The translations under genes and the position numbers were made by a program. DNA of 33,818 nucleotides. Origin: Acidobacteriaceae bacterium (GTDB lineage: Bacteria > Acidobacteriota > Terriglobia > Terriglobales > Acidobacteriaceae). Where the stretch lies: positions 1 to 33,818 of the forward strand of contig JASHQE010000082.1 in NCBI GenBank assembly GCA_030037705.1. Direction: 5' to 3'. Each line of letters begins with the position of its first letter. Within the stretch, counting starts at the first letter, position 1. Below the pieces are notes generated by a model, which had not been told where the DNA came from, made no database searches, and saw only the letters and a list, made by a program, of their open reading frames with translations. Shown one piece after another: positions 1-24,674 of the stretch.

Positions 1-455
1 AACTGGTGCAGCTCGCCGCTGTCACCCAGCGCGTAGCGGCCGCGGTAGCCCATCTCCAGGCAGAGACAATGCACTTCGAGCGCGTCGGCCACTTCGGCGG
101 AGTCCTGCTGGCTCAGGAGGGAGCGTAGATTCGTGAAGACCATCTCGCCGGCGAGATGGCCGCCGAAGAGCTCTTCCTGCAGCGGGCGGCGGGCCCAGTC
201 AGCGAAGACCGGGCTTTGGAGATTGAGCGCGCTCTCATCAAGAAAGCCGACTACGGCGAAGACGCACATCTGCACGGTTTCGCTTGAGTAGCCGAGGGCG
301 CGCGCCTCCTGCATGGCTGATTGCAGCGAGCGACGCATCTGGGCACGAAAACTTTCCGAGTCCTGCACCTGCTGGCGCTGGAAGCGCACGCGCACGATGG
401 CGGTGAGCGCCTCCTGAAAGCAGAGGGCAAGCGAGTTCACGCGGGGAGTGGACAT
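1..455 (-). CDS. tssL: TssL/DotU-family T6SS membrane-complex protein, partial
   Basis: This is the first 151 or so residues of a DotU/IcmH-type protein, read on the minus strand and cut by the left edge of the window. TssL sits in the inner membrane with TssM and links the membrane complex to the baseplate. I translated it directly: a start ATG at 455-453 abuts the TAA stop of tssK1, giving a TAAATG junction, so the two genes are almost certainly co-transcribed. Visible family hallmarks are the FLDES motif near residue 70, the WARRPLQEELFGGHLAGE stretch around residues 84-101, and the LEVHCLCLEMGYRGRYAL segment near residues 125-142. The C-terminal transmembrane helix typical of DotU proteins, and any OmpA-like extension, lie outside the window. 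Family assignment is secure; length and anchor cannot be seen. Confidence 0.9.
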   Translation of the reverse strand, partial: MSTPRVNSLALCFQEALTAIVRVRFQRQQVQDSESFRAQMRRSLQSAMQEARALGYSSETVQMCVFAVVGFLDESALNLQSPVFADWARRPLQEELFGGHLAGEMVFTNLRSLLSQQDSAEVADALEVHCLCLEMGYRGRYALGDSGELHQ

Positions 456-1811
456 TTACGTTGTCTCCACGATCACGGTGAGTTCGAATTCAGGCTGGGC
501 GATTTCGCCGGGGATGTAGATGCCGACCTGGCGCGTCTGCAGAATGTGTTCCCAGCAGGGCCCGGTGGTGTCGACGGCGAAGTATTGCATGTCGGCCTCG
601 GCGCGCAGAGCGCTGGGCGGAACGGGCAGATGCGTGAGCGTCATGCCGGGCAGCGCGCGTTTGACCAGCTCGGGCACGAACTTCGAAGAGCAGACCTTGA
701 CCAGACGCGGCGTGAGCTTGAGCAGGTCCGACTCGCCGATGGAGGAGGAGCGAATGCCGAGAACCCAACGCGAGCGGCGCAGGCAGCGCTCGTCGTGCAC
801 CTCGGCGGCGTGCATGTATGGCTCGGTGGGATGAAAGTCGAGCGTAACCGTGTTCGACGGCACGACAATTTCGAGATGTTTGCGTATGTGCGCGTCGAGA
901 GCGCGGAAGGCCGGCCCGGGATCGCGATGGTTGTACGCAGGAAGCGTGCGCGGGTCGGAGTCGACAGCGAAGGTGCAGAGCGCGCCGGCCAGACGTGAGA
1001 TCTCGATGAAGACATCTTCGGGATGTGCGTGGCGCATGGCGGTAAGATGCTGCAGCGGCGGAATGGCGCTTTGCAATGCATGCAGGAACCAGTAGTTAGC
1101 TACGTCGAGGGCGCTGGTGCCGGCCTCGAAACGGCCATGGCGCCGCGCGCCGCGGGAGACCGTGGCGCTTTTTTCGCCGATTGCGTCGAGCAGACGGCGG
1201 ATGAGCAGCAGCAGCGTCTCGCTGGCGCTCAGGCGCAGGCAGGGCGGAATGAAATCCTCGTCGCAGACAAGGTGGCCTCGGCCATCGCGCAACACGCGTG
1301 CGATGGGGATGGAGAGCATCTCGGATGTTAACTCGGCTTCCGTGGTGAGCGAGAGGTTTTTCTGGCCTAAATCGATCTCGCGTTCATCGATGCCATTGGT
1401 CTCATCGCGCAGCATCCGCTGCATCCGCGAGAAGCGGCTGCCGTTCGGCGAAGCAGAGAGCTCGCAGTCGAAGCCATTGTCACGGCGCGTGGGAACGGTG
1501 AGGTAGAGCGGCAGCACGGCGTCCGTCGATGGAAAGACTTCGAGCAGATTGCGCGCTGCCGGCGGCGGGTCGGAGTTGGGAACCTCGAAGACCAGGCCAT
1601 CGGGGAAAATTCCCGACGCGTGAAGCAGCACAGCGGTACCGTTACGCATGGCTTTGGGATCGAGCTCTGCGTGCAGCAGTCCCCATGGCTCACGCCACAG
1701 ACTGGCTGCGAGGAAGGCCATCGAATCTTCGAAATATCGGCTTTGCGTCTGGAAGTGATGAGGGCTGAGATACATCCCTTCGGACCAAACGACGCGCGAC
1801 AGGAATTTCAT
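456..1811 (-). CDS. tssK: T6SS baseplate protein TssK, first copy
   Basis: A 451-residue protein of the TssK (ImpJ/VasE) family, which forms trimers in the cytoplasmic T6SS baseplate and connects the TssFGE wedge to the TssL/TssM membrane complex. The N-terminal shell signature is clear: VVWSEGMYLSPHHFQTQSRYFED at residues 7-29, then SGIFPDGLVFEVP near residues 66-78. The C-terminal part has LTHLPVPPSALR and a GIYIPGEIAQPEFEL strand, as in other TssK proteins. Length matches the family (about 440-450). The gene is first in a minus-strand pair with tssL, directly adjacent. The start lies in an 11-bp tandem duplication (1805-1826) that creates a four-codon upstream reading frame. A second complete TssK is encoded at 3803-5155. 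The two are full-length homologues but clearly divergent, so this is not a recent copy. Confidence 0.95.
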   Translation of the reverse strand: MKFLSRVVWSEGMYLSPHHFQTQSRYFEDSMAFLAASLWREPWGLLHAELDPKAMRNGTAVLLHASGIFPDGLVFEVPNSDPPPAARNLLEVFPSTDAVLPLYLTVPTRRDNGFDCELSASPNGSRFSRMQRMLRDETNGIDEREIDLGQKNLSLTTEAELTSEMLSIPIARVLRDGRGHLVCDEDFIPPCLRLSASETLLLLIRRLLDAIGEKSATVSRGARRHGRFEAGTSALDVANYWFLHALQSAIPPLQHLTAMRHAHPEDVFIEISRLAGALCTFAVDSDPRTLPAYNHRDPGPAFRALDAHIRKHLEIVVPSNTVTLDFHPTEPYMHAAEVHDERCLRRSRWVLGIRSSSIGESDLLKLTPRLVKVCSSKFVPELVKRALPGMTLTHLPVPPSALRAEADMQYFAVDTTGPCWEHILQTRQVGIYIPGEIAQPEFELTVIVETT

Positions 1812-2044: not shown

Positions 2045-3775
2045 ATGGACCCGTTCAGGGATCGCTCCGATAATCCGCAACTCCCCCACTCGGATGACCC
2101 TCCCGGCAGTTCCCAGTCGAGCGCAACCGGGATCTTCGGGTTGCCCTCTGTTGTGCCCCCTTCGGCCGACGAAGAGGACCTGTTGGCCTCTCAGGCGAAA
2201 AAAACTCTTGACCCGCAATCCGCTCCGCCACCTGCGCCTGCGCCCAATCCTGCTCCAGTCAGTGCGGAATCTGCTCCAACGCAGCCTTCACCAACTGCCG
2301 CGTCCCAGGGCGAATTTACGCGGGTGCTGCAGGCGTTGAAAACAACGGAACCCGCGAACGCAGATCAAGGTTCGCGCGCGTCGGAGGAACTGGCGAAAGT
2401 CTTCAGCCCGGTGCCGAAGGAGAAGATTTCTGCGGCAGTCCAAACGCCTCCCGCCTTTCAGGCGGTACAGGCCGAGAAACCGGCTGAACCGGCCCCGGGA
2501 GCGTCACTCCCGCAACCCGTATCGCCTGCTCCTGATTCAGGCAGCTTTACGCAGATGTTCAAGGCGATGAGCTCGCCATTGGCATCAAGCGCACCTCAAG
2601 TGTCTACGGCAAATGCGCCTCCGGCCCCGCCCGTGCCGAGCTCTGCTGCAGCATCTACGATGAGTTCCGGACCGAATTCCGGACCTGGAGAATTTACGCG
2701 CATCTTCAGCTCGGCGGGCGCAAAACCGGCCGAACGGCCGGCATGGAATGCAACGCCGCAAACCCCGCAGCCTCCCGTGTGGACACCGATGCCGCAGGCG
2801 ACTCCACCGGCTCCCGCACTCACGCAAGGTCCGGGTGAATTCACAAAGATGTTTCAGGGGTTGCCGGATGAGGGCACGCCGAAGCAGTCGACACCGCCTC
2901 CGTTTATGCCTGCACCTGCGCCGCCCGCCGGGGCAGCGCCGAGTGCGGGACCGGGCGCGTTTACGCAGATGTTTTCGAGCTCGGCGGCAACGTCAGCTCC
3001 GCCAGCCCTGCCGTTCGAACCGCTGCGGCCGATCGTGCCGGAGCCAGCAAAAGAAAGCAGTTTTAGTTTTCCGGGTGCGCCTTTGCTTGCGGCCGATCCA
3101 GCGCTTCCCGCGCAAGGCGGGTTCACCCAACTGCTGAAGGCATTGAATCAGGAGCCTGCGAGCAAGGCGCCGGAGCCGATTCTTGCTCCGCCGCTGGTTT
3201 CAACTCCGCCCGCAGCCGGTGGCTTTACGCAACTGCTGCGCACGCTTTCCGAGCAGCCCGCTCCGGCAGTGCCTCCGCTGCCACTATCTCAGCCGGCGTC
3301 TGCGCCGCCGTTCACGCCGAATTTCGCTCAGCAGCAGCCGGTCGCAACGCCAGGTATTCCCCCTGTGCTACCACCGCAACCTGCGTCTCCTGCTGTCAGC
3401 GGCCCAGGTGAGTTTACGCGTGTCATTTCCGGATCGGCCCTGCGCGATATGCAAGCTGCGCAGGGAGCGCCGCCTGCGTCTCTGCCACCTGCTGCGCCTC
3501 CGGCCCGGCCTGCATGGACGCCGCCGCCTTTGCAGCCTCCGGCCATGCAGCCGCCTGCGATGCCGCAGGCTCCGAGACCGCCGGCTGCTGCTCCTGCTGC
3601 GCCGCAGTTCGCGCCGCCCGCCTTCGCGTTTCAGCCGCCGCAGGCGCCCGCACCACCCCCCGCTCCAGCGCCTGCCGCGATGCCGAAGTATACGATCGCG
3701 ATCCTAGCGGTGATGGGCTTCCTGATTATTGCCCTGTTGATCATTCTGGTCTTCGTGCTGATGCGCCATAAATGA
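2045..3775 (+). CDS. Proline-rich, C-terminally membrane-anchored protein with eight GxFT motifs
   Basis: A 576-residue protein I cannot assign to a named family. Most of it is low-complexity Pro/Ala/Ser sequence. Embedded in it are eight copies of a short motif of the form G-[E/S/A/G]-F-T-[R/Q/K]-hydrophobic-hydrophobic, often preceded by P or GP: at residues 89, 166, 215, 264, 304, 358, 392 and 455. Examples are GEFTRVLQAL, GSFTQMFKAM, GEFTKMFQGL and GGFTQLLRTL. The only long hydrophobic stretch is at the very C-terminus (about residues 552-573, TIAILAVMGFLIIALLIILV), ending in MRHK, and there is no N-terminal signal peptide. This predicts a tail-anchored protein with a long disordered cytoplasmic arm. 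It lies between two tssK genes, transcribed away from tssK1 and toward tssK2. A T6SS scaffolding, recruitment or phosphorylation-target role is inference only. The conserved coding frame and ordered motifs argue against a spurious frame. Confidence 0.85.
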   Translation: MDPFRDRSDNPQLPHSDDPPGSSQSSATGIFGLPSVVPPSADEEDLLASQAKKTLDPQSAPPPAPAPNPAPVSAESAPTQPSPTAASQGEFTRVLQALKTTEPANADQGSRASEELAKVFSPVPKEKISAAVQTPPAFQAVQAEKPAEPAPGASLPQPVSPAPDSGSFTQMFKAMSSPLASSAPQVSTANAPPAPPVPSSAAASTMSSGPNSGPGEFTRIFSSAGAKPAERPAWNATPQTPQPPVWTPMPQATPPAPALTQGPGEFTKMFQGLPDEGTPKQSTPPPFMPAPAPPAGAAPSAGPGAFTQMFSSSAATSAPPALPFEPLRPIVPEPAKESSFSFPGAPLLAADPALPAQGGFTQLLKALNQEPASKAPEPILAPPLVSTPPAAGGFTQLLRTLSEQPAPAVPPLPLSQPASAPPFTPNFAQQQPVATPGIPPVLPPQPASPAVSGPGEFTRVISGSALRDMQAAQGAPPASLPPAAPPARPAWTPPPLQPPAMQPPAMPQAPRPPAAAPAAPQFAPPAFAFQPPQAPAPPPAPAPAAMPKYTIAILAVMGFLIIALLIILVFVLMRHK

Positions 3776-3786
3776 CGCCCAACAAT

Positions 3787-3814
3787 CTTTACGAATTGGC
3801 CTTTACGAATTGGC
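3787..3814. repeat. 14-bp perfect tandem duplication over the tssK2 stop codon
   Basis: CTTTACGAATTGGC occurs at 3787-3800 and again at 3801-3814. On the minus strand each copy encodes the final Asn-Ser-stop of tssK2, so the stop region is duplicated without changing the protein. It lies in the 27-bp gap between the convergent ends of the proline-rich gene and tssK2. Confidence 0.9.
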
Positions 3815-5155
3815 GAAGAGAAAGATCAGTTCCATCTCGGGATTGGGGATTTCCTGCGGTGCGTAGACGGCGAAGTTGCGCGAGCGTACAACCGACTCCC
3901 ATACAGGGCCGGTGCGATCCAAACTAAAGTATTGATACCTAAGTTTCACCGGGATGGCTCTTGGCGGCACGGGCACATGCGTAAGTTTGACTCCGGGCAG
4001 CGCCTGGCGGATGAGCTGCTCGATATGCGTCGCCGAGCAAATTTTGGTGAGGGCCGGCGTGCGCGCGATCAGGTCGGCTTCTTTCAGATCGGAAGAGATG
4101 GCGAGATAGGCCCGCGAGTTCTCGAAGTAGCTGTCCTTATCGATGGCCGTCGCGTAGATAGAATCGCGCAGCGGCTTGAGGGGCAGCGCCACAAAGTTAC
4201 TGGGAACCACGGTGTCGAGCAGCTCGGCGATAGCCGCGTCCAATGCGAGGAAGCAGGGGCCGGGCCGCTCGTGTTCGTAGCGGGGCAGGTCGCGTGATTC
4301 AAATTTCGATGAAAACGTGGTGAGGGCCCCGGCGAGCGAAAGCATGTGCAGGAACATCGATTCGGGATGCACCTGCGCCGCGTCCAGCATGTGCCGCGCA
4401 ACTGGAAGATGGACGTTGATGGTGTAAAGAAGCCAGAAGTTGGCGATGTCGGATGCGCTGAAATCGGCGAGAGATTGATTGCGCTGGCGGCGTGATCCGG
4501 CGAGCTGACTGCTACGCGCGACCAGCGTCTCAATCTGACCGCGCAAAATCCCGGTGAGCAGTTCATTGGCCTTGACGTTCAGCAGCGGCGGCGCGAACTT
4601 GGGGGCGTGCCGGTAACTGCCGGCCTCGGTCTTTTCAATCTGGGCGAGAGGGAGCACCACGGCTCCTTCGAGGTTCTCGTTTTCGGCAAGAATCTGCAGG
4701 TTCTTGCGGGCCAGCGAGACGGGCTTCTCCACGCCGGAGCTGTTTTCGTCGCGCAGCATCTGCAGCTCGGAGTAGAAGCGCGTGCTGGCGCCGCCGCGCT
4801 GCAGGGCGATGTTGATGCCGCCTGGGCGGTCCTGCGGAACAGCGAGGAAAAAGGCGCAGGAGCTTCGGCCATCGGAGAAGATTTCATCGAGCGTGCGCGA
4901 GGCGGGCGGTACATCGGACGAAGGCAGATCGAGCATCAGGCCATCGGGAAAGATTCCCGAGGCTTCGGTTACATGGAGGCGCCCCTGGCTCAGGCTGGCG
5001 GCGTCGATTTGCAGCTTCGCGAATCCCCAGTTGCGGAAGGAAAGCGCGCCGGCGAGGAAGCGAAGCGTGTCCTCAAAAAAGCGGTCCTGGGCCTGCAGAT
5101 GCTGTGGGGATAGAAACACGCCCTTGGACCAGACCACCGGCTGCAACTGTCGCAT
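3803..5155 (-). CDS. tssK: T6SS baseplate protein TssK, second copy
   Basis: A 450-residue second TssK-family protein. It aligns with the first copy over its whole length: VVWSKGVFLSPQHLQAQDRFFED at the N-terminus, SGIFPDGLMLDLPSSDVPPA, LQMLRDENSSGVEK, then ALPGVKLTHVPVPPRAIP and TGPVWESVVRSRNFAVYAPQEIPNPEMEL at the C-terminus. The many substitutions mean an old duplication or separate acquisition. It stands alone on the minus strand, divergent from tssB, with its own strong ribosome-binding site (AGGAG about ten bases before the ATG). Both copies look intact, with no truncation or missing block. Whether they form mixed trimers, or serve distinct contacts (TssFGE versus TssL/TssM), cannot be told from sequence. 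Confidence 0.94.
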   Translation of the reverse strand: MRQLQPVVWSKGVFLSPQHLQAQDRFFEDTLRFLAGALSFRNWGFAKLQIDAASLSQGRLHVTEASGIFPDGLMLDLPSSDVPPASRTLDEIFSDGRSSCAFFLAVPQDRPGGINIALQRGGASTRFYSELQMLRDENSSGVEKPVSLARKNLQILAENENLEGAVVLPLAQIEKTEAGSYRHAPKFAPPLLNVKANELLTGILRGQIETLVARSSQLAGSRRQRNQSLADFSASDIANFWLLYTINVHLPVARHMLDAAQVHPESMFLHMLSLAGALTTFSSKFESRDLPRYEHERPGPCFLALDAAIAELLDTVVPSNFVALPLKPLRDSIYATAIDKDSYFENSRAYLAISSDLKEADLIARTPALTKICSATHIEQLIRQALPGVKLTHVPVPPRAIPVKLRYQYFSLDRTGPVWESVVRSRNFAVYAPQEIPNPEMELIFLFANS

Positions 5156-5473: not shown

Positions 5474-5992
5474 ATGGCCAAAGAAAGCACTCAGCACAAA
5501 CTCGATCGCGTCCGCTCGCCGCGCGTGCACATCACCTATGACGTCGAGGTCGGCGATGCAATCGAGATGAAAGAACTGCCTTTTGTGATGGGCGTTCTTG
5601 GAGATCTGACCGGGCAGCCCGAGCAGCCTCTCGCGGCCCTTAAGGATCGCAAATTTGTCGAAATCAACCCCGACAACTTCGACACGGTGCTCAAGGGCAT
5701 GCAGCCTCATTTGGCGTATTCGGTTGCGAACAAGCTGAGCGACGATCCGAATGCCGGACAGATCAGCGTCAATCTCAAATTCGAAAGCCTGGATGATTTC
5801 TCGCCCGAGAATGTCGCCAAGCAGGTCGGGCCGCTCAAGGAGCTGCTGGATCTGCGCACGCGCCTGTCAGACCTCCGCGGGAGTCTGCAAGGCAATGACA
5901 AGCTCGACGAGGCCTTGTTCGAGGCGGTTTCAAATACGGAAACGCGCGACAAGCTGAAGGCAGAGCTCGGCAAAAGCGGAGGTGCTGAATGA
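5474..5992 (+). CDS. tssB: T6SS contractile sheath small subunit TssB
   Basis: A 172-residue TssB (VipA/IglA) protein. With TssC it builds the cytoplasmic contractile sheath that drives the Hcp tube outward. The family hallmarks are present: SPRVHITYDVEVGDAIEMKELPFVMGVLGDLTG near residues 14-48, KFVEINPDNFD near 60-71, and the coiled C-terminal half with LKFESLDDFSPENV and LRTRLSDLRGSL. Length is normal. The ATG at 5474 has AGGGG upstream at good spacing; another ATG at 5470 is out of frame. The stop overlaps the tssC start by four bases (ATGA), so translation is probably coupled to give matched amounts of the two sheath subunits. Confidence 0.97.
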   Translation: MAKESTQHKLDRVRSPRVHITYDVEVGDAIEMKELPFVMGVLGDLTGQPEQPLAALKDRKFVEINPDNFDTVLKGMQPHLAYSVANKLSDDPNAGQISVNLKFESLDDFSPENVAKQVGPLKELLDLRTRLSDLRGSLQGNDKLDEALFEAVSNTETRDKLKAELGKSGGAE

Positions 5993-7476
5993 GTGCACAA
6001 GAGGCGGCAGCGGCTGGAGCATCAGCGACAACTCAGGAAGAACAGAGCCTGCTCGAACAGATCGTGGCCCAAGGGCGATTCAACCGCGATGCGGCATCGC
6101 TCGAGCGCGGCCGCGACATGGTGAAAGAGTTTGTGAGCCAGGTGCTCGAGGGCCACATGACCCTGACGCGCGACGCGGAGGCCAGCATCCAGGCCCGCAT
6201 CGCGCAGATCGACCGGTTGATCTCCATTCAGTTGAACGAGGTTCTTCATTATCCGGCCTTCCAGAAGCTGGAAGCGACATGGCGCGGCATCAAGTATCTG
6301 ATCGACCAGTCGGAAACCAACGACATGCTCAAGATCAAAGTACTGAACGCCAGCAAGCGCGAACTGCTCAGGGATCTTCAGCGCGCGCCGGAGTTCGATC
6401 AGAGCGCGTTATTCAAGAAGGTGTACGAGGAAGAGTTCGGCATCTTTGGTGGAGCACCGTTCGCCGCATTGCTGGGCGATTACGAGTTTGGCCGCGGCCC
6501 CGAGGACATCGAGTGCCTGGAGCGCATCTCCCAGGTTGCCTCAGCAGCGCACGCACCATTCATCTCTGCGGCGAATTCCGAGCTGCTGAACCTGAGCAGC
6601 TATACGCAACTGGGCGCGCCGCGCGACATCGGCAAGATCTTCGACTCGACTGAATACGCGAAGTGGAAGAGCTTCCGCCAGTCGGATGACTCACGCTATG
6701 TGGCGCTTACGCTGCCGCACATCTTGATGCGCCTGCCTTATGGCAAGGACACCAAGCAGATTGAGGCCTTCGATTATGAAGAAGCGGTGGATGGCAGCGA
6801 TCACTCCAAGTACCTGTGGGGCAACGCGGCTTATGGGCTGGCGGCGCGACTGACGAACTCGTTTTCGAAGTACGGATGGTGCGCTTCGATTCGCGGCGTG
6901 GAAGGCGGCGGCCTTGTAGAGGGACTGCCGGCGCACACTTTCCGCACGGACGAGGGCGACGTGGCCCTCAAATGCCCCACCGAAGTGGCGATCACCGACC
7001 GTCGCGAGAAGGAGTTGGCAGATCAGGGCCTGGTGCCACTGGTGCACTGCAAAGGGACCGATTACGCGGCCTTCTTTAGCGTGCAGACGGCGAACAAGCC
7101 CAAGCTCTACGATAAGGAAGCGGCAAACGCGAATGCGCGCCTGTCGGCGCAGCTGCCTTACATTCTGGCGATGTCGCGTTTTGCGCATTATTTAAAGGCG
7201 ATGATGCGTGATAAGATCGGCAGCTTCATGAGCCGTCAGGACTGCGAAAAGTTCCTGAACCAATGGATCAGCAATTACGTCGTCTCCGATGACAATGCGT
7301 CACAGGCGGCTAAGGCGAGCCATCCTTTACGAGAAGCGGTGATTCAGGTTTCCGAGATCCCCGGCAAGCCTGGCGCTTATCGTGCAGTTGCATTTCTGAA
7401 GCCGCATTTCCAACTCGACGAGCTCTCTGTTTCGCTTCGTCTGGTGGCCGACCTGCCTGCATCGGCGCGGAAATAA
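5989..7476 (+). CDS. tssC: T6SS contractile sheath large subunit TssC
   Basis: A 495-residue TssC (VipB/IglB) protein, partner of TssB in the sheath. The core signatures are clear: WRGIKYLIDQSETNDMLKIKVLNASK near residues 97-122, GAPFAALLGDYEFG, the LTLPHILMRLPYG motif, the WGNAAYGLAARLT segment, and the C-terminal MMRDKIGSFMSRQDCEKFLNQWISNYV block followed by the terminal beta strands. Residues 21-31 (LLEQIVAQGRF) resemble the N-terminal helix through which ClpV recognises the TssC/VipB subunit in other systems. That fits the presence of clpV in the same operon, but the equivalence is inferred from similarity. Overlaps tssB by four bases. Confidence 0.97.
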   Translation: MSAQEAAAAGASATTQEEQSLLEQIVAQGRFNRDAASLERGRDMVKEFVSQVLEGHMTLTRDAEASIQARIAQIDRLISIQLNEVLHYPAFQKLEATWRGIKYLIDQSETNDMLKIKVLNASKRELLRDLQRAPEFDQSALFKKVYEEEFGIFGGAPFAALLGDYEFGRGPEDIECLERISQVASAAHAPFISAANSELLNLSSYTQLGAPRDIGKIFDSTEYAKWKSFRQSDDSRYVALTLPHILMRLPYGKDTKQIEAFDYEEAVDGSDHSKYLWGNAAYGLAARLTNSFSKYGWCASIRGVEGGGLVEGLPAHTFRTDEGDVALKCPTEVAITDRREKELADQGLVPLVHCKGTDYAAFFSVQTANKPKLYDKEAANANARLSAQLPYILAMSRFAHYLKAMMRDKIGSFMSRQDCEKFLNQWISNYVVSDDNASQAAKASHPLREAVIQVSEIPGKPGAYRAVAFLKPHFQLDELSVSLRLVADLPASARK

Positions 7477-7553
7477 TAGCGGAAAAACTGTTGAGCTGGC
7501 GCAAGCAGATACGGCAGGCAATGAACGCACTGGCCGGTTGAGAGGAGCAAACG

Positions 7554-8030
7554 ATGGCAGTTGATTATTATCTGAAACTCGACCAAATCGACGGAGAAGC
7601 CGCTGATTCGAACCATAAAAACGAAATTCAGCTTCTCAGTTGGAGTTGGGGCGCTTCGCAGGTTTCCTCCGTTGTCGGTACGGGCGGTTCAGGTGCGGGC
7701 AAGGCGGATCTCTCCGATTTTTCGATCATGACTAACTTTGATAAAGCAACGCCGAAGTTCTTCAAATCGATTTGCGCGGGCACGCACATCAAGACTGGCA
7801 CCATGAACGCGATTAAGTCCGGCGCCGACGGCAAGCCGTACCTGAAGGTTGATTTTCAGGAGATGTTCGTTACCAGCCTGCAGATCTCGGCATCGAGCGA
7901 GATTCCTACCATCAGTGTGACGTTCAGTTATAACCAGATCAAGATTGATTATTCGACGCAGAACGAACAAGGCAACCTCACCAGCACCGGCGCGGTGACT
8001 TATAATACCAAGGAAAATAAGCTCTCGTAA
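7554..8030 (+). CDS. hcp: Hcp-family T6SS tube protein
   Basis: A 158-residue Hcp1 (TssD) protein that forms stacked hexameric rings as the inner tube and is secreted on firing. Typical features are the N-terminal YYLKLDQIDGEA, the IQLLSWSWGASQ strand at about residues 24-35, SDFSIMTNFDKATPKFFKSICAG near 53-75, and the C-terminal QIKIDYSTQNEQG. It has a strong ribosome-binding site (GAGAGGAG about eight bases before the ATG) and follows tssC after 77 bases, so it may be translated at a high level. No C-terminal toxin extension is present; length is standard for a structural Hcp. Confidence 0.96.
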   Translation: MAVDYYLKLDQIDGEAADSNHKNEIQLLSWSWGASQVSSVVGTGGSGAGKADLSDFSIMTNFDKATPKFFKSICAGTHIKTGTMNAIKSGADGKPYLKVDFQEMFVTSLQISASSEIPTISVTFSYNQIKIDYSTQNEQGNLTSTGAVTYNTKENKLS

Positions 8031-8041
8031 GGCGGCCGCTC

Positions 8042-8770
8042 ATGGACGCGCTTTCTCTCTATCGGGCCGGCCAGCTTCAGGCGGCCATCGAAGCGCTTGG
8101 TGACGAGTTGAAGAAACAGCCGCTCGACGCCAAGCGCCGCATTTTTTTATTTGAACTTTTGTGCTTTGCAGGCGAATACGAGCGGGCCGAAAAACACCTG
8201 AATGTTCTTGCTGACGCCAGCACCCAGGCTGCGGCTGGTGCGATGCTCTATCGCTCCGCCTTGCATGCCGAACGGGAACGGCAGGATATGTTCGCGCGGG
8301 GTGCGCTTCCGCAGGGCTCGGCGCGTCCTTCGCCCACCGGCGAGTTGAACGGCGAGAGATTTTCCGGATTGGCTGACGCCGACCCGCGCATCGGCGCTCA
8401 TCTCGAAGCCTTCATTGCCGGCAGTTATACCTGGATTCCTTTTGCCTATATCGAAGCGATCGAGATGGAGCCGCCCAAGCGTCTGCGCGACCTGCTGTGG
8501 ATTCCGGCGGTGTTGCACACCACTTCCGATTTCCGGCTGCAGGATCTCGGCGAAGTGCTGTTGCCTGTAATCGCTCCTCTCTCCTGGAAGGGTTCTGACG
8601 ATGCGGTGCGTCTGGGCCGCACTACGGTGTGGCAGGATGACTCCGAATATGGGCAGATTCCCGTGGGGCAGAAATTGCTGCTGTGCGGAGATGAGGAGCA
8701 GCCATTCCTGGAGATGCGGAGACTGACCTTCGATCACGCCGGCGAAAGGGCTGAAAGTGCCACTGCGTGA
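8042..8770 (+). CDS. tagJ: TagJ/ImpE-family T6SS accessory protein
   Basis: A 242-residue ImpE/TagJ protein. In studied systems TagJ binds the sheath protein TssB and helps link ClpV to sheath recycling, though it is not always essential. The N-terminus (LYRAGQLQAAIEALGDELKKQPLDAKRRIFLFELLCFAGEYERAEKHL) has the tetratricopeptide-like helical pattern of the family. The C-terminal half contains SYTWIPFAYIEAIEMEPPKRLRDLLWIPA, a recognisable ImpE block. It starts 12 bases after hcp and overlaps the tssA start by 14 bases, suggesting coupled translation. Co-occurrence with clpV is consistent with the proposed role. Confidence 0.9.
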   Translation: MDALSLYRAGQLQAAIEALGDELKKQPLDAKRRIFLFELLCFAGEYERAEKHLNVLADASTQAAAGAMLYRSALHAERERQDMFARGALPQGSARPSPTGELNGERFSGLADADPRIGAHLEAFIAGSYTWIPFAYIEAIEMEPPKRLRDLLWIPAVLHTTSDFRLQDLGEVLLPVIAPLSWKGSDDAVRLGRTTVWQDDSEYGQIPVGQKLLLCGDEEQPFLEMRRLTFDHAGERAESATA

Positions 8771-10592
8771 TGATCTGCTGAATCCGATCTCCGGCAACAA
8801 TCCATCAGGCGCAAACCTGCGCTACGAGAAGGTCTATGACCAGATCAAAGAAGCGCGGACCGAAGACGACGACACGATTCCCACCGGGGCTTGGGCGCGC
8901 CAGATCAAGAGGGCCGATTTCAATCTGGTAATTAAGCTTGCCGGAGAGGCGCTCGCAAACAAGAGCAAAGACCTGCAACTGGCTGCATGGCTGACGGAAG
9001 CCCACGTCAAGAAAGAAGGCATCAGTCTCATTCAGCCATGCCTCAAGCTGTTCCAGGATCTGCAGGAACAGTTCTGGGAGACGTTGCATCCGGAGATCGA
9101 GGATGGCGATGCGGGGATGCGCGCTGTTCCGATCGAGTGGGCGGCGAACCGGATTGCGGCCATTCTGCGCGAGTGCCCGATTACCCGCGACGGCCTGAAC
9201 TACTACCAATACAAGGAATCGCGCGCAATCGGTTACGAAGCCGACGCCCAATACAACGACGCCAAAACGCAGCAACGGGAACAGGCCATCGCCGACGGCA
9301 AGCCCACGGCAGAGGAGTTCGATAAGTCGTTCAACACGACTCCGAAGTTGTGGTACGTGCAGATAGAAGCTGCATTCCACTCTTCCATGGAAACAATGGA
9401 AGGGTTGCAAGTCTTCTGTGAGCAGAAGTACGGCGATGATGGACCGGGCTTCAGCAAACTGCGCAGTGCGCTCGAGGAGGTAGGGCAGGTTGTCACCGGT
9501 TTGTTGAACGAAAAGCGCAAGACCGAGCCCGATGCGCCGCCGCCCGAAGAGGTGGTCGAGGAACCTGAAACCGAACCGGAGCCTGAAGCAGTCGCGGAAG
9601 CTGAAAGTGAGACGGAAGTTGCGCCTGCTGCGGCCAAACCCAGGGCCGGAAAAACGCTGACCTTGGAGCCTGTGGACAAGGACGACGCGTTCGCACGGGT
9701 TCAGGCCTGTGCTAGGTTTCTGCAGAAAGACAATCCTTCCAGCCCCGCGGCCTACATGCTGCAGGCGGCGCTGCGGTTTGCTGAAACGCGGGAAGTGGGC
9801 AGCTCTCCCGCTTGGGATTTTCTTGCCCCACCGCCAACGGAGAAGCGGCAGAACCTGAAGCGGCTGGCCTCCGAATCGAACTGGTCAGAGCTGCTTGCGG
9901 AGGCGATCGCCGCTGCCGGCGAACCCTGCGGCCGGGGCTGGCTCGACGTGCAGCGCTACATATGGAAGGCTAGCTATGAGTCCGGTTACACCGCGATCAC
10001 GGCCGCGGTGATCGCGATGCTTCAGGGACTACTCAAAGATATTCCCGAGATTTCCGCATGGACCATGAGCGACGACACGCCAACGGCGAATCCAGAAACG
10101 CAGAAATGGCTCGAGGAGATAGTCATTCCCAAGCCGCCCCAGCCAATCGTCGTAGAGGCGCAGCCGGAGCCTGAACCCGAGCCGGTTTATATACCGGCAC
10201 CGCAGCAGGCGGAGGAGAACGCGCCGCCGGACGTGCTGGATACCGCGCGAGAATTGATGGCGCGGGGTCATCTGCCTCAGGCTATCCAACTGCTGATGCG
10301 CGATGCGGCGCAGCAGCCGAGCGGACGCGCGCGGTTCCAGCGCAGGCTCCAGATCGCGCAGCTTTGCGTCGGCGCGGGCCAGGGCAAAGTGGCGTTTCCG
10401 GTGCTCGATGAGCTGGTAAAAGAAATCGACCAGCGCCAGCTCGAAGAATGGGAGGCGACCGATATGATCGCGCCTCCGCTCGCATTGCTGCTCAAGTGTC
10501 TGGATGAGTCAGAGAACGGCGGTATGCGCGAATCGGTCTTCAACAGGTTGTGCCGCATCGATCCGATTGCGGCCATGGATATTTCACGGTGA
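8757..10592 (+). CDS. tssA: T6SS baseplate/sheath-cap protein TssA with ImpA_N domain
   Basis: A 611-residue TssA. TssA proteins nucleate or cap the growing sheath and contact the baseplate. The ImpA N-terminal domain covers about residues 1-160 (PISGNNPSGANLRYEKVYDQIKEARTED, then KDLQLAAWLTEAHVKKEGI and WETLHPEIEDGDAGMRAVPIEW). The C-terminal region resembles a VasJ-type domain and ends in FNRLCRIDPIAAMDISR. It is on the long side for the family because of two acidic, proline-rich linkers, around residues 259-299 and 457-491 (for example EEPETEPEPEAVAEAE and QPEPEPEPVYIPAP). The start is GTG at 8757, overlapping tagJ by 14 bases, with GAAAGGG upstream. Confidence 0.92.
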   Translation: MPLRDDLLNPISGNNPSGANLRYEKVYDQIKEARTEDDDTIPTGAWARQIKRADFNLVIKLAGEALANKSKDLQLAAWLTEAHVKKEGISLIQPCLKLFQDLQEQFWETLHPEIEDGDAGMRAVPIEWAANRIAAILRECPITRDGLNYYQYKESRAIGYEADAQYNDAKTQQREQAIADGKPTAEEFDKSFNTTPKLWYVQIEAAFHSSMETMEGLQVFCEQKYGDDGPGFSKLRSALEEVGQVVTGLLNEKRKTEPDAPPPEEVVEEPETEPEPEAVAEAESETEVAPAAAKPRAGKTLTLEPVDKDDAFARVQACARFLQKDNPSSPAAYMLQAALRFAETREVGSSPAWDFLAPPPTEKRQNLKRLASESNWSELLAEAIAAAGEPCGRGWLDVQRYIWKASYESGYTAITAAVIAMLQGLLKDIPEISAWTMSDDTPTANPETQKWLEEIVIPKPPQPIVVEAQPEPEPEPVYIPAPQQAEENAPPDVLDTARELMARGHLPQAIQLLMRDAAQQPSGRARFQRRLQIAQLCVGAGQGKVAFPVLDELVKEIDQRQLEEWEATDMIAPPLALLLKCLDESENGGMRESVFNRLCRIDPIAAMDISR

Positions 10593-10613
10593 GAGAAAAA
10601 GGAGCATTGAGGA

Positions 10614-11078
10614 TTGGCGCGTTCGACGATAGATACGCTGGTGACGCAATCGGTTCTTGACCGGCTGATGGAGGTTGAAGACTGGCCGTCGACGCGCTCG
10701 CAGTCCACGCGCTACTTTCGCGACGCGCTCAAGCGTGATCTGGAGTGGCTCTTAAACACGCGGCAGCCGCCAATGCCCGAGCTCGCCTCCTATCCGGGGG
10801 CGAAAATTTCCGTCATTAATTACGGCCTGCCGGATATCAGCTCGCTGGGACTGAACAATGCTTCGGATCATCGCGCGCTGCGTCTCGCTATCGAGGCCTG
10901 CCTGCGCAATTATGAGCCGCGGCTGATGAATGTGCGGGTGAGCCTGGAAGGCTCCGACACAGTAGACCGGCGGTTGCGTTTCCATATCGAAGGAAGCATG
11001 AAGCTGGATCCGGCACCCGAAGAGATTGCTTTCGATACCGTTCTTGAACTCTCAAGCGGCGAGTACAAAGTGAAGTAA
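10614..11078 (+). CDS. tssE: T6SS baseplate wedge protein TssE (gp25-like)
   Basis: A 154-residue gp25/lysozyme-like baseplate protein that initiates sheath polymerisation in the TssEFG wedge. Visible signatures are RYFRDALKRDLEWLLNTRQPP near residues 33-53, SVINYGLPDISSLG, and ALRLAIEACLRNYEPRLMNVRVSLEG near 91-116. In this family the E-P-R-L segment is close to the conserved EPRL motif of gp25. The start codon is TTG at 10614, supported by AAAGGAG nine bases upstream and by the family's N-terminal length. The gene ends immediately before the tssF ATG (TAAATG), so the two are co-translated. Confidence 0.93.
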   Translation: MARSTIDTLVTQSVLDRLMEVEDWPSTRSQSTRYFRDALKRDLEWLLNTRQPPMPELASYPGAKISVINYGLPDISSLGLNNASDHRALRLAIEACLRNYEPRLMNVRVSLEGSDTVDRRLRFHIEGSMKLDPAPEEIAFDTVLELSSGEYKVK

Positions 11079-12920
11079 ATGCGCGAAGAACTGCTTGAAT
11101 ATTACGAACGCGAGCTGGCCTATCTCCGTCAGTTGGGAGGCAAGTTCGCGGAAAAATATCCGCGCGTCGCGAGCCGCCTTCTGCTGGAGCCGGATCGCTG
11201 CGACGATCCGCACGTCGAGCGTTTGCTCGAAGGGTTCGCGTTCATGGCGGCGCGCATTCATCTGCGCGTGGACGATGATTTTCCTGAAGTCACTTCTGCG
11301 TTGCTGGGTATTGTCGCGCCTCATTATCTGCGGCCGATCCCGTCGATGACGATCGTGGAATGCCAGGTAGATCCGGAGCAGGGAAAGCAGACCGCCGGTC
11401 AGGTGATGCCGGCGGGAACGCCGTTGGCCACCAAGCGGCTGGTTGATGGCCAGCCGTGCCGCTTCCAGACAGCCTATCCGGTGGAGCTGTGGCCGTTCAC
11501 GGTGGGCGAGTGCGATTGGCGGCAGCCGGAACGGCTCGCCGATCCAGTGCGCGTTCCGGGAGCGGTCGGTGTTTTGCGCGTCCGGCTGCAGTGCGCGCGC
11601 GATGTGGAGTTCAAGCAGCTCAACCCGCGCCGGCTGGTCTTTCATGTCGCCGGCGAAGTGAACGTGATTCACACTCTGTACGAACTGCTCTGCCGCAACT
11701 GCATCTCGATCCTGGTCCGCAACCCGCAGCAGCGCGGCGGCAAGCCGGTGAGCATCTCTCCCGCGCAGCTGCGCGCTATGGGCTTTGAAGAGAGCGAGTC
11801 GCTGCTGCCGTATCCAAAGCGTTCCTTCGATGGTTACAGGCTGTTGCAGGAGTACTTCACGTTTTCAGAGAAATTTCTCTTCTTCGAATTGAGCGGACTC
11901 GATGCTATTGCCGAAGCTGGATGCGGGGAACAGGCCGAGATTCTTTTCTGCATTTCGCGCTTCGAGCGGCTCGAGCGCAGCCAGGACCTGGAGACCGGTG
12001 TCTCGGCGCGCACGATGCGCCTGGGATGCACACCGATCGTCAACCTGTATTCGCAGGTTGCCGAGCCGATTCTGGTGACGCACACAAAGCACGAGTACCA
12101 GGTGATTCCATCGGTCCGGCGGCAGGAGACGCAGGAGATTCACTCGATTGACGAGGTGTTGGCGTCGAGCACGAGCCGGCGCGAAAGCATCTCTCTCGAG
12201 CCGCTTTATTCCTATCGCTTCCAGGCGAGGAAGGAAACAGTACGCGCGTATTGGCATGCAGTTCGGCGCCGGAATGAACTTGGCGAACGCGAACCTTCCA
12301 CGATGCACCTCTCGCTGGTAGATGTGGACGGCGTTTTAGCCGAGCCCAATGCCGAAGTGCTTACAGTGCGCTGTTCCTGTTCGGACTTCGACCTTCCCTC
12401 GCGTTTGCCCTTCGGGCTGGAAGATGGAGATTTTGCGGCGGAAGATTATCCGGTTGTCAAGCAGATCACGGCGCTGCGCAGGCCCACGCCGAGCTACGAC
12501 CCTCCCCGGGTGAAGAGCCAGTTATGGCGCCTGGTTTCGCAGCTTTCGCTCAATTATCTTTCTCTCTCCGAGGAGGGCGTTGCGTCTCTGCAGGAGATTT
12601 TGCGCCTGCATAACTTTACCGATTCATCGTATCTCGAAAATCAGATCGGTGGCATTGTTAAACTGGGTTCGAGCCCGCATTTCGCTATCATGCAATCGGT
12701 ATATGGCGGTTTGCCGGCGCGCGGCACGCGTGTGGAGATCGAGTTTGATGAGCGGCAGTTTGTGGGCGGAGGCGTGTACCTGTTTGCCAACGTTCTCGAT
12801 CGTTTTCTCGGGTGCTATACCTCGATCAACAGCTTCTGCCAACTGGCGGCGCGCACTAGCCAGAGAAAGGAGCCGTTGGGCGAATGGCCACCCAAAGCGG
12901 GATACAAACCCCTCATCTGA
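11079..12920 (+). CDS. tssF: T6SS baseplate protein TssF
   Basis: A 613-residue TssF (ImpG/VasA) protein, a core part of the baseplate wedge with TssG and TssE. The N-terminal signature is unmistakable: YYERELAYLRQLGGKFAEKYPRVASRLLL and DPHVERLLEGFAFMAARIHLRVDDDFPEVTSALL within the first 80 residues, followed by LGIVAPHYLRPIPSMTIV. The C-terminal half contains the RVEIEFDERQFVGGGVYLFANVLDRFLGCYTSINSF block typical of the family. Length is normal. It starts directly after tssE and overlaps tssG by 37 bases. Confidence 0.96.
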   Translation: MREELLEYYERELAYLRQLGGKFAEKYPRVASRLLLEPDRCDDPHVERLLEGFAFMAARIHLRVDDDFPEVTSALLGIVAPHYLRPIPSMTIVECQVDPEQGKQTAGQVMPAGTPLATKRLVDGQPCRFQTAYPVELWPFTVGECDWRQPERLADPVRVPGAVGVLRVRLQCARDVEFKQLNPRRLVFHVAGEVNVIHTLYELLCRNCISILVRNPQQRGGKPVSISPAQLRAMGFEESESLLPYPKRSFDGYRLLQEYFTFSEKFLFFELSGLDAIAEAGCGEQAEILFCISRFERLERSQDLETGVSARTMRLGCTPIVNLYSQVAEPILVTHTKHEYQVIPSVRRQETQEIHSIDEVLASSTSRRESISLEPLYSYRFQARKETVRAYWHAVRRRNELGEREPSTMHLSLVDVDGVLAEPNAEVLTVRCSCSDFDLPSRLPFGLEDGDFAAEDYPVVKQITALRRPTPSYDPPRVKSQLWRLVSQLSLNYLSLSEEGVASLQEILRLHNFTDSSYLENQIGGIVKLGSSPHFAIMQSVYGGLPARGTRVEIEFDERQFVGGGVYLFANVLDRFLGCYTSINSFCQLAARTSQRKEPLGEWPPKAGYKPLI

Positions 12921-13963
12921 ATCCTGATCTAAGCTTGGACGCACGATTCGCGCTGGTGCGCGCAATGCTGGAGCAGGACCCCTACTGCTTCCAGTTTTTC
13001 CAGGCTGTGCGCTTGTTGGAGCGGCTTTATCCGGAGCGTAATCCGGTGGGACTTTTTGTCTCTCCGTTTACCGAGGTCGTGCAGTTTTCTTCTGTCCCTA
13101 CGCTGAGTTTTCCTGCGAGTGAGATCCAGGATTACAAGCCGGGCGGGGATGGCCCGCCGAAGCTCTCGGTGAATTTCATGGGGCTCTGCGCGGCGGTGGG
13201 CGTGCTTCCTCATGCCTACACCGAGTTTCTTTTGGAGCGGGCCAAGGCGAAGGACCGCGGGCCGGCGGAGTTCTTCGACATCTTCAACCATCGGATGATC
13301 TCGCTGTTTTATCGTGGCTGGCAGAAGTATCGCTTCTATATTGCGTACGAGCGGACGGGCGCCGGCGACGGCCTGATCGACGATCTGATTGGCGCGCGTC
13401 TGCTCGATCTTATCGGACTGGGCACCAATTCGCTCACACGGCGGATGGAGATCGAAGATGAAGCCTGCCTTTATTACGCTGGACTCCTCTCCGCGCGGCG
13501 TCCAACGGCTCAGGGGCTGAAACAACTCATCGAAGATTATTTCGACGTTCCCGTCGAAGTGGAGCAGTTTACCGGAACCTGGCGGCGTCTTCCTCTGCGG
13601 AATCTGACCTATCTGCGCGATACCGGCGCATTCTGTGAACAGTTAGGAATGGGCACGATCGTTGGCGACGAAGCGTTTGATCAGCACGGCGCCGTCGCTC
13701 TGCGCATTGGCCCTTTGAGTTTTAATCGTTATCAAGAGTTTCTGCCCGGCGCGCGCGCCTACATCGAACTGCGTGCCTGGTTGCGGATCTACACGAACCG
13801 CGAGTTTGATTACGTGATCCGGCTCGTACTCGAGCGCGACGAGGTACCACGCATGAAGCTGGGTGAAGACGGCATGGGCGCATCGCGTCTTGGACTGGTG
13901 AGCTGGGTCAAAAACCGGCCGCTCGAGCGCGATCCGGACGAGGCGACTTACTGGCTGACCTGA
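12884..13963 (+). CDS. tssG: T6SS baseplate protein TssG
   Basis: A 359-residue TssG (ImpH/VasB) protein. Two TssF and one TssG form the trifurcation of the baseplate wedge. Family features are the CFQFFQAVRLLERLYPERNPVG segment at about residues 35-56, VQFSSVPTLSFPASEI, LSVNFMGLCAAVGVLPHAYTEFLLERA near 96-122, and DIFNHRMISLFYRGWQKYRF. The ATG at 12884 lies inside tssF, with AAAGGAG about a dozen bases upstream; the 37-base overlap implies coupled translation. Length is typical. Confidence 0.95.
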   Translation: MATQSGIQTPHLNPDLSLDARFALVRAMLEQDPYCFQFFQAVRLLERLYPERNPVGLFVSPFTEVVQFSSVPTLSFPASEIQDYKPGGDGPPKLSVNFMGLCAAVGVLPHAYTEFLLERAKAKDRGPAEFFDIFNHRMISLFYRGWQKYRFYIAYERTGAGDGLIDDLIGARLLDLIGLGTNSLTRRMEIEDEACLYYAGLLSARRPTAQGLKQLIEDYFDVPVEVEQFTGTWRRLPLRNLTYLRDTGAFCEQLGMGTIVGDEAFDQHGAVALRIGPLSFNRYQEFLPGARAYIELRAWLRIYTNREFDYVIRLVLERDEVPRMKLGEDGMGASRLGLVSWVKNRPLERDPDEATYWLT

Positions 13964-14010
13964 ACGCCAAATCTTTTTTTGAAAAACGAGATTCACGGGA
14001 GACTTGAAGA

Positions 14011-16671: not shown

Positions 16672-16695
16672 TGCAACACGACAGTTTGACGGAGC

Positions 16696-16724
16696 TCCCG
16701 CCAGGCTCTAGGGCTATGGCGGGA
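16696..16724. other. Perfect 8-bp stem hairpin between clpV and vgrG
   Basis: TCCCGCCA (16696-16703) pairs with TGGCGGGA (16717-16724) around a 13-base loop. No T-tract follows on either strand, so it is not a classical intrinsic terminator. It could stabilise an mRNA end or partly terminate between the structural genes and the vgrG/effector module. Confidence 0.5.
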
Positions 16725-16750
16725 CCGTTCGTATCAGAAAGCTTAGCGAT

Positions 16751-18934
16751 ATGACCGCATTCGGACAGACAAACCGACTGATGAATTTTACAAGTCCGCT
16801 GGGAGCGGATGTGCTGCTCCCGGAGCGCCTGGCCGGCGTGGAAGGCATTTCGGAGCTGTTCGATTATCAGCTTGACCTGCTGGCGGAAACCTCAACCTCG
16901 ATTGACCCTAAAAAAATTGTGGGACAAAAAGTGTGCGTCGGCATTCAAGCCAACGACAGCGGAACCATGCGGTACGTCAACGGCATTGTAGCCAGCTTCG
17001 AGATGGGTAATGGCGACGAAGAATTCAACATGTACCGCGCGCGGATCGTCCCCAATCTCTGGGTGTTAACCCTGAACAAAAATACGCGCGTCTTCCAGAA
17101 CATGACGGTTCTGGACGTCATCACGAATGTACTGTCTCCCTACAAGATCAGCCCCAAGAACAACACCTCGGGCACTTATCAGACGCTGGATTACTGCACG
17201 CAGTACCGTGAAACAGACTTTCATTTCATTTCGCGCCTGATGGAGCAGAACGGAATCTTTTACTACTTCACGCATACCGCTGACGATCACACGCTGGTCC
17301 TTGAGGACACGTCGAGCAAGCTAAGTGACTGTGCGATTCAGAGCACATTTCGGTTTGCGCCCGAGCTGAAAAATAGCGAAGGTTTTTACGATTTCGTGAT
17401 TCGCGAATTGGCCTTGCGCTCCACTCTGGTGACAGGTAATTACACCTCCTGGGACTACAGCTTCATCCGCTACCAGGATGTGGCAGGAACGGAGCTGACG
17501 ACGAATGGGCCTCTCGGCGCCAACAGCAACGAACAATACGACTATCGCGAGGCCGAAGGATACTTGAAAGGGGAAAAGTCGGATTCCAACCTGAAAACTC
17601 TGGAAGATGCCTTCACGACCGTAAGGCGCGATGCAGGCGACGCCGAGACGCTTGTGATTGAAGGCGTATCGAATGCAGTTTGCATGCAATCAGGTTATGC
17701 GTTCTCCATAACCGAGCATCCGCAGAGCAGCGTGAATACGAAGTATATTCTTACCCGCGCGGAGCACCAGGTGCAGCAATTGCCTTCTTACCGTTCGCGG
17801 ACGGCGGCAACTCCGCAGCCTTTCACAAGCACATTCAAAGCCACTCCCTTTTCCATTGTGTACCGCGCGCCGATCAGGACAGAAAAGCCTGTGGTCTATG
17901 GAATGCATACAGGCCAGGTGGTCGTTCCCTCCGGCGAAGACTCGTACATGGATAAGTATGGGCGCGTGAATGTGCAGTTTTGGTGGGATCGGCTGCGCAA
18001 ACCCAACACGCCCGACAACACGCTGCTGCGCGTTGCGCAATCGTGGGCAGGGAAGGGATGGGGAACCTATTACTGGCCTCGCGTAGGCGATGAGGTGCTC
18101 ATCGGCTTCATGGAAGGAGATCCGGACCAGCCCATCGTTGTGGGCTCGGTGTACAACGGCGTCAATATGCCGAAGTACGATCCGGCCGGTCAATATACGC
18201 TTTCCGGAATTCTGACGCGAAGCTCCACAGGGGGCGGCGCAGCCAACGCGAACGAACTCCGCTTCGAAGATCTCGCCGGCAGCGAGCAGATCTACATGAA
18301 TGCGGAAAAAGATTATGACCTGCACGTGGAGAATGACTGGCACACACTGGTGGGTAACGAGCAGCACACGAAGATCACCAAGAACCGCTTCGACGAAGTG
18401 GATGGGGACTCTCATCTGCTCATCAAGGGGAAGCATCTCGAAGAGATTGACGGCGAGAACGACCTGAACGTCAAGGGCAAGCAGATTGTTCAGGTTGGCG
18501 GCGACTGCGATCACGCGATCAGCGGCAATTTAAAGGAGAGCATCGGCGCGAACTCCAACATCAGTGTTACCTCTAACCTGAATGAGCAGATTGGCCAAAA
18601 TTATTCGCTTACCGTGGGGCAGAAGCAGGCAATTCAGGCGGGGATGAACTTCGATGTGAATGCCCCGGTACAAATCTCGCTCAATTGCGGGCCGAATAGC
18701 ATCGTCCTCAGTCCGGAGGGTATTGGTCTGAACGGCGAAGGCGGATTTATCTCCATCAGCCCCGCGGGCGTGACGATCTCCGGCATGATGGTGATGATCA
18801 ACAGCGGTGGTGCTCCTGTGACCGGCTCACCTGGAAATGCCCAGAGTCCGCAGTCGCCAGGCAGCCCCACCGCGCCCACGGCGCCGACCTTCCCTGGCGA
18901 TGCTCCGTATTCCAAGGCCAAAACAGACGAGTAA
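16751..18934 (+). CDS. vgrG: T6SS spike protein VgrG (TssI)
   Basis: A 727-residue VgrG. Trimers cap the Hcp tube and carry effectors. The N-terminal gp27/gp44-like region (about residues 10-380) has FDYQLDLLAET, DVITNVLSPYKI, and YRETDFHFISRLMEQNGIFYYF. The gp5-like OB-fold follows (about 385-480), with MDKYGRVNVQFWWDR, LLRVAQSWAGKGWGTYYWPRVGDEVLIGFMEGDPDQPIVVGSVYNG. The rest is a gp5-like beta-helix needle rich in short D/G/N repeats, ending in GIGLNGEGGFISISPAGVTISG and a flexible Pro/Thr-rich tail. No separate toxin domain is visible, so this is a structural rather than an evolved VgrG. The next gene supplies the PAAR tip, 15 bases downstream. Confidence 0.95.
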   Translation: MTAFGQTNRLMNFTSPLGADVLLPERLAGVEGISELFDYQLDLLAETSTSIDPKKIVGQKVCVGIQANDSGTMRYVNGIVASFEMGNGDEEFNMYRARIVPNLWVLTLNKNTRVFQNMTVLDVITNVLSPYKISPKNNTSGTYQTLDYCTQYRETDFHFISRLMEQNGIFYYFTHTADDHTLVLEDTSSKLSDCAIQSTFRFAPELKNSEGFYDFVIRELALRSTLVTGNYTSWDYSFIRYQDVAGTELTTNGPLGANSNEQYDYREAEGYLKGEKSDSNLKTLEDAFTTVRRDAGDAETLVIEGVSNAVCMQSGYAFSITEHPQSSVNTKYILTRAEHQVQQLPSYRSRTAATPQPFTSTFKATPFSIVYRAPIRTEKPVVYGMHTGQVVVPSGEDSYMDKYGRVNVQFWWDRLRKPNTPDNTLLRVAQSWAGKGWGTYYWPRVGDEVLIGFMEGDPDQPIVVGSVYNGVNMPKYDPAGQYTLSGILTRSSTGGGAANANELRFEDLAGSEQIYMNAEKDYDLHVENDWHTLVGNEQHTKITKNRFDEVDGDSHLLIKGKHLEEIDGENDLNVKGKQIVQVGGDCDHAISGNLKESIGANSNISVTSNLNEQIGQNYSLTVGQKQAIQAGMNFDVNAPVQISLNCGPNSIVLSPEGIGLNGEGGFISISPAGVTISGMMVMINSGGAPVTGSPGNAQSPQSPGSPTAPTAPTFPGDAPYSKAKTDE

Positions 18935-20071: not shown

Positions 20072-20076
20072 CTACG

Positions 20077-24614: not shown

Positions 24615-24674
24615 TGATTACTCCTCTGAAATATTCGATCAATTCGATTGAACGGGTTATCCCCGAAGTTGTCG

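Follow-up and report, generated by a model that had tools for sequence, protein, structure and literature searches.

The type VI secretion system (T6SS) is a contractile weapon with which bacteria inject toxins into their neighbours. In the T6SS of Acidovorax citrulli, the assembly scaffold Fha is a substrate of the kinase PpkA, and condensates formed by both proteins recruit T6SS parts (PMC12607579); in Agrobacterium, Fha binds TssL that has been phosphorylated by PpkA (PMC3953482). Here we describe a gene at positions 2045-3775 of a 33,818-nucleotide stretch from an Acidobacteriaceae bacterium (contig JASHQE010000082.1, hereafter the window), whose product carries repeated GxFT motifs. We propose, with a probability of about 0.5, that this GxFT protein is an accessory, T6SS-dedicated, tail-anchored multivalent scaffold of the acidobacterial T6SS, probably phosphorylated on threonine and perhaps acting in place of Fha.

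The GxFT protein resembles Fha/TagH as a candidate hub of a T6SS cluster that also encodes a kinase and a PP2C phosphatase, the Fha scaffold being one that recruits T6SS parts (PMC12607579). Unlike Fha/TagH, it has no forkhead-associated (FHA) domain, is membrane anchored and displays a repeated linear motif. PpkA, a T6SS Ser/Thr kinase with one transmembrane helix, is encoded in the same type of cluster; the GxFT protein likewise has a single transmembrane helix, and its relatives in other families of the phylum are built as kinase N-lobe, linker and transmembrane helix. The family nevertheless differs from PpkA in having no catalytic lobe, VAIK lysine or periplasmic domain, and the window copy lacks the N-lobe as well. 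Tail-anchored TssL, of the DotU family, shares the cluster, the single C-terminal transmembrane segment, the short tail and the presumed cytoplasmic bulk, but the GxFT protein is disordered and has no DotU domain (PF09850) by Pfam. Beyond the T6SS, GarA/OdhI have an N-terminal phosphothreonine motif and Rv1747 a disordered linker with multiple threonines, and both types of protein carry their own FHA domain. Their likeness to the GxFT protein lies in a T-x-hydrophobic-F core, or in several phospho-acceptor threonines within a disordered region; they differ in that FHA domain, in not belonging to a T6SS and in having many fewer motif copies. Rv1747 is also named as a condensate former in PMC12607579. 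The same work describes TssW of A. citrulli, a recently reported membrane-linked T6SS accessory protein of the PpkA-Fha axis (PMC12607579); the GxFT protein is similar in kind, but no N-terminal secretion signal pointing to the outer membrane was read from its sequence, its only hydrophobic segment being C-terminal.

The GxFT gene and its motifs

The open reading frame (ORF) encodes 576 residues and is rich in proline (22%) and alanine (18%). GxFT begins at residues 89, 166, 215, 264, 304, 358, 392 and 455, and is followed every time by R, Q or K and then by two hydrophobic residues (Φ). Against these eight GxFTxΦΦ motifs, 20,000 shuffles of the same composition gave 0.08 on average and never more than 3. 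A single helix-length hydrophobic segment lies near the C terminus (residues ~548-575). We also identified an N-terminal SATGIF sequence, which has the same T-x-hydrophobic-F core as the GxFT motif. The features of the gene are as follows.

2045-3775, forward strand: GxFT protein gene, 576 residues, ATG start; putative tail-anchored repeat-motif scaffold (from the ORF, motif count, same-place orthologues and dN/dS)
2120-2137, forward strand: N-terminal SATGIF motif (invariant alignment columns; kept across the family as ATxxF)
2309-2329, forward strand: GxFT copy 1, GEFTRVL
2540-2560, forward strand: GxFT copy 2, GSFTQMF
2687-2707, forward strand: GxFT copy 3, GEFTRIF
2834-2854, forward strand: GxFT copy 4, GEFTKMF
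2954-2974, forward strand: GxFT copy 5, GAFTQMF
3116-3136, forward strand: GxFT copy 6, GGFTQLL
3218-3238, forward strand: GxFT copy 7, GGFTQLL
3407-3427, forward strand: GxFT copy 8 (residue 455), the specialised terminal copy GPGEFTRVISGSALRD, of a form conserved across the family
3689-3763, forward strand: C-terminal transmembrane helix, the tail anchor (hydropathy, homologue comparison and AlphaFold2 model of homologue L099)

ORF, shuffles, composition and hydropathy thus agree with the description given by an earlier sequence-only reading, namely eight GxFT motifs on a Pro/Ala-rich arm with one C-terminal transmembrane helix. That reading could match the protein to no named T6SS component, and searches of Pfam, NCBIfam and PHROGs likewise returned zero matches; a literature search for the motif strings retrieved only old scanned-text noise.

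The array is conserved well beyond the window. We counted 409 motifs in 69 homologues, against 0.27 expected from shuffles, at a median spacing of 43 residues and with about seven copies per protein (2-10). The family motif is [P/G]-G-x-F-T-[R/Q]-hydrophobic-[F/L/I], and the terminal copy takes the specialised form GP[GS]E[FY]T[RQ][IVM][IMF], usually 60-130 residues from the protein end. A tail transmembrane segment is present in 67 of the 69, the remaining two being truncated by contig ends. In the pattern GxFZ[RQK]ΦΦ, position Z is threonine in 338 of 342 cases (alanine in 3, proline in 1, serine in 0), which makes threonine the most invariant motif position, although serine outnumbers threonine in these proteins. 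When the window gene was compared with four orthologues, the ratio of nonsynonymous to synonymous divergence (dN/dS) was 0.02-0.06 in motifs versus 0.18-0.27 for the remaining sequence, ratios that are rough because dS is high; nonsynonymous differences per site alone set motifs and rest ~2.5- to 12-fold apart. Purifying selection on the motifs therefore appears about tenfold stronger than on the rest of the protein, the underlying ratios being rough. Copy number and selection together uphold the multivalency proposed from the window.

In a full-length AlphaFold2 model of homologue L099 the arm is unstructured (predicted local distance difference test, pLDDT, mostly 42-65) and the tail helix scores ~92. 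From sequence and models, the anatomy is most likely that of a multivalent scaffold, with a tail anchor, a long disordered arm and conserved stickers at the median spacing given above. A disordered arm with stickers at regular intervals of 40-odd residues would also suit a protein that phase-separates at the membrane through GxFT stickers and Pro/Ala spacers, with no dedicated folded reader, and Fha and PpkA do form condensates in another T6SS (PMC12607579). Motif identity is, however, far stricter than stickers usually require, and we regard a condensate former of this kind as a tentative alternative.

Distribution and gene order

Same-place orthologues of the GxFT gene were recovered among 60 relatives. 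A TssK2 query, with one genome per species, returned 80 loci, nearly all labelled as Acidobacteriota (L and G numbers are our handles for loci and genomes). An ORF with at least two GxFTxΦΦ motifs lies between both tssK genes in 45 of the 51 acidobacterial loci that hold both, and a diverged version does so in 2 (Bryocella elongata, L093; strain TAA 166, L110). No GxFT ORF stands between the tssK genes in 4 of the 51, though the genome of one of them (L109) carries the gene at another site. In L079, L100 and L126 the gene was found beside tssK1 after longer stretches were taken. Orientation is fixed: head-to-head with tssK1 in 52 of 52 cases, tail-to-tail with tssK2 in 63 of 63. The family extends to a sequenced isolate, Granulicella tundricola MP5ACTX9, whose plasmid pACIX901 encodes a homologue annotated as a hypothetical protein (WP_013572716.1, ACIX9_RS27465); Paracidobacterium acidisoli has an orthologue too. 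As defined here, the family comprises proteins with at least two GxFT-x-hydrophobic-hydrophobic motifs, a disordered arm and a tail transmembrane segment, encoded beside the tssK1/tssL/tssM operon, and the window protein has all of these features.

A whole-protein profile search over the phylum, with three candidates scored per genome, found the family in 5 of 396 genomes. Degenerate DNA motif patterns were chosen because low-complexity sequence blunts such searches. A tblastn search of plasmids with the GxFT protein gave no match, though the Granulicella plasmid carries a homologue, and for that reason the null is probably due to the low-complexity filter. A degenerate DNA pattern for GxFT[RQK..]ΦF, run on twelve gene-carrying genomes, gave multi-match places only at the T6SS GxFT gene and at a second copy in G454, also beside tssK2. 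We also searched a class-level sample of 150 genomes, each at least 95% complete, of which 34 have TssK. The listed matches were read by eye: six genomes had at least three motifs within 1.5 kb, all ~1.1 kb or less from tssK, and no such cluster appeared in the TssK-negative genomes listed. In another such motif search most single matches were isolated and were treated as chance. The stretch fetched around tssK of Gemmatirosa (TssK 43%) held no GxFT gene. Many genomes in this survey, which centred on Acidobacteriota, are metagenome-assembled genomes (MAGs).

The GxFT gene is T6SS-dedicated and almost always present in the T6SS-carrying Acidobacteriota surveyed. Across species it lies in a fixed place inside T6SS clusters, as an accessory gene of the system does. 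The sequence-only reading had linked the motif to the T6SS and held that occurrence mainly beside non-T6SS genes would speak against the link; we looked for this and did not find it, because motif clusters are confined to T6SS loci in the twelve genomes scanned and in the listed part of the class-level sample, and the gene recurs beside T6SS genes across the phylum. The same observations bear on the idea that the product is a secreted or effector-related low-complexity protein, or the gene a passenger without T6SS function. Pro/Ala-rich sequence is common in secreted proteins and hypothetical genes are frequent in T6SS clusters, but the near-universal tail anchor, the fixed place and orientation and the confinement of motif clusters to T6SS loci make this very improbable.

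A methyltransferase-like gene was seen in or beside the GxFT slot at L014:7586-9055, L119:11347-12954 and L127:11334-12932, two of these clusters being without the GxFT gene. The L127 record is labelled Betaproteobacteria; its T6SS looks acidobacterial (TssK2 51% identical), and it is possibly a mislabelled MAG.

The window is a whole contig of a 5.13-Mb genome (G000, an 85% complete MAG), so anything past the cut tssL is missing. Its T6SS features are listed below; the position of the gene between two tssK genes, as first read, is borne out by PF05936 matches on both flanks.

1-455, reverse strand: tssL (DotU), truncated by the contig start; probable, from by-eye comparison with the L014 DotU protein (PF09850)
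456-1811, reverse strand: tssK1 (PF05936, E 6e-129; TIGR03353), head-to-head with the GxFT gene, 233 bp between starts
3803-5155, reverse strand: tssK2 (PF05936, E 1e-136; TIGR03353), tail-to-tail with the GxFT gene, 28 bp between ends
5474-18934, forward strand: T6SS core, tssB, tssC, hcp, tagJ/impE, tssA, tssE, tssF, tssG, clpV and vgrG (Pfam)
18950-20859, forward strand: PAAR protein (373 residues), then a PoNi-type immunity gene (PF05488, PF08928/PF08929)

This order of genes raises a second alternative, a baseplate docking platform in which unphosphorylated GxFT binds TssK, or another baseplate part, and so tethers several wedges to TssL/TssM, the two TssK paralogues being the partners. 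Two tssK genes flank the gene and are conserved together with it, and multivalency would fit the many TssK copies in each baseplate. Moreover, a search for TssJ (PF12790) in ten acidobacterial genomes (G306, G331, G451-G457 and G000; the E. coli control was positive) found none, which suggests that the membrane complex may lack its usual outer-membrane lipoprotein and is already non-canonical. On the other hand, the GxFT gene of G003 (locus L014) adjoins tssL in a 33-kb contig where no tssK was found, so gene position by itself does not point to TssK in particular, and naming it as the partner is a guess from that position. Three loci without the gene (L115, L119 and L127) still carry two tssK genes, and a plain hydrophobic docking helix does not predict a near-strict threonine without serine. 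We consider docking of this kind possible but doubtful.

Further along the window, the PoNi-type immunity gene that follows the PAAR gene suggests that the PAAR protein or its neighbour is a PoNe-type DNase effector. Next to the T6SS, the reverse strand at 22932-30719 appears to carry a cluster for glycan use, with genes for an alpha-L-fucosidase, a GH2 beta-galactosidase and an Oar-like TonB-type outer-membrane protein.

Kinase-related features and FHA domains

Many GxFT loci carry a PP2C phosphatase gene beside tssM, and several clusters a Ser/Thr kinase gene. In other families of the phylum, among them Bryobacterales/Solibacteres, homologues carry an additional folded domain at the N terminus. 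A profile built from 21 of them matched kinases in 55 of the 56 PDB matches listed, each individually weak (E 0.02-0.7). The AlphaFold2 model runs β1-β2-β3-αC-β4-β5-αD, with a pLDDT of 73 for the domain alone and 81-94 within a full-length homologue, and the matches listed by Foldseek were kinases, headed by Stk1 (2.7e-4) and PknB (7.9e-4). The VAIK lysine is not conserved in the alignment of these N-lobes and there is no C-lobe; the domain is therefore a pseudokinase fragment. No complete catalytic kinase domain was found by Pfam (Pkinase) in the window protein or its homologues, and the window protein has SATGIF in place of the N-lobe. Between N-lobe and first GxFT repeat we also identified a second short conserved motif, RxGxWK[VI]P (L098, L099, L102, L107, L113, L118, L121, L136, L139 and L057); L098 and L118 carry it though no N-lobe was recognised there.

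It had been suggested that the motif threonine serves an FHA/kinase pathway. The kinase half of this suggestion gains from the near-strict threonine, the Pkinase and PP2C genes in the cluster and the N-lobe of relatives, which together make phospho-control of the motifs likely but unproven. The FHA half is weakened. An FHA hidden Markov model that recovers 30 of 30 controls found no FHA domain in ~100 T6SS loci, and Pfam found none in the window protein or its homologues. The gene-carrying genomes G000 and G453 likewise have none at E<=1e-5, and an FHA reader is doubtful because one of these is the window's own genome (85% complete). Where FHA domains were found and read elsewhere, they belonged mostly to FHA-GAF-phosphatase or VgrG/PAAR-linked proteins. 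These results count against a phosphothreonine array in which motifs phosphorylated by a kinase of the cluster would be bound, as pT-x-hydrophobic-hydrophobic, by an FHA protein. A near-strict threonine with a hydrophobic residue at +3 would fit phosphothreonine recognition, kinase and PP2C genes lie in the cluster, and phosphothreonine-FHA binding operates in the Thr-phosphorylation pathway of the Agrobacterium T6SS (PMC3953482), but we judge such an array unlikely.

Genomes without the GxFT gene have FHA domains near T6SS genes, and three of the four cases are VgrG/PAAR-side accessory proteins; in G531 alone does an FHA gene follow tssM directly. A strict mutual exclusion of GxFT gene and FHA was considered and dropped, because of those three and because Terracidiphilus gabretensis has both. 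The G531 ORF (L241:15985-17568) comes immediately after tssM, in a T6SS that has no GxFT gene, and combines an FHA domain, a transmembrane segment and an apparent lytic-transglycosylase domain. By eye, the FHA-domain ORFs near vgrG/PAAR (L154:913-1773, L244:6617-7660, L244:1233-2588 and L242:2860-3867) include two like DUF4123-type chaperones and two like DcrB-type proteins.

A candidate hub of the acidobacterial T6SS

We hypothesize that the tail anchor of the scaffold sits in the inner membrane while its long disordered arm, probably cytoplasmic, displays the motif array. The array would gather a T6SS component at the membrane, the presumed site of machine assembly, and is probably tuned at the motif threonines, with a Ser/Thr kinase and a PP2C phosphatase, whose genes lie next to tssM, adding and removing the phosphate. 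The family would descend from an ancestor bearing a kinase N-lobe, perhaps a PpkA-like kinase that has decayed. Since the clusters hold kinase and phosphatase genes but no core Fha was found in them, it may be the GxFT protein that takes the hub role played by Fha in proteobacterial T6SS.

Several points weigh against this scaffold reading. The T6SS-bearing genomes G459, G460 and G461 are without the gene, which is therefore not essential to every acidobacterial T6SS. Neither pppA nor a kinase was found in every GxFT cluster, some loci ending too early. Homologues share ancestry, so motif and locus counts are not independent. The strict threonine could be structural rather than a phosphosite, and a cytoplasmic arm is suggested by only the short C-terminal tail and the lack of a signal peptide. 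A stronger version of the scaffold reading, in which the Fha hub of Acidobacteriota has been replaced by a pseudokinase-derived, tail-anchored, phospho-switchable GxFT array, with machine assembly nucleated by this array at the inner membrane and TssJ missing as well, is offered tentatively, as a conjecture we would not yet favour.

The T6SS has been dissected mostly in Proteobacteria and Bacteroidota, and the GxFT protein is a conserved, unnamed component from a major soil phylum. That so simple a motif is repeated and kept under strong selection points to a step in assembly or control that has yet to be described, and the motif, represented by the peptide GPGEFTRMFQAL, offers a short bait for finding its interaction partner. 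More generally, with this family one can test if another protein can replace the Fha hub and if secretion machines are organised by multivalent linear motifs.
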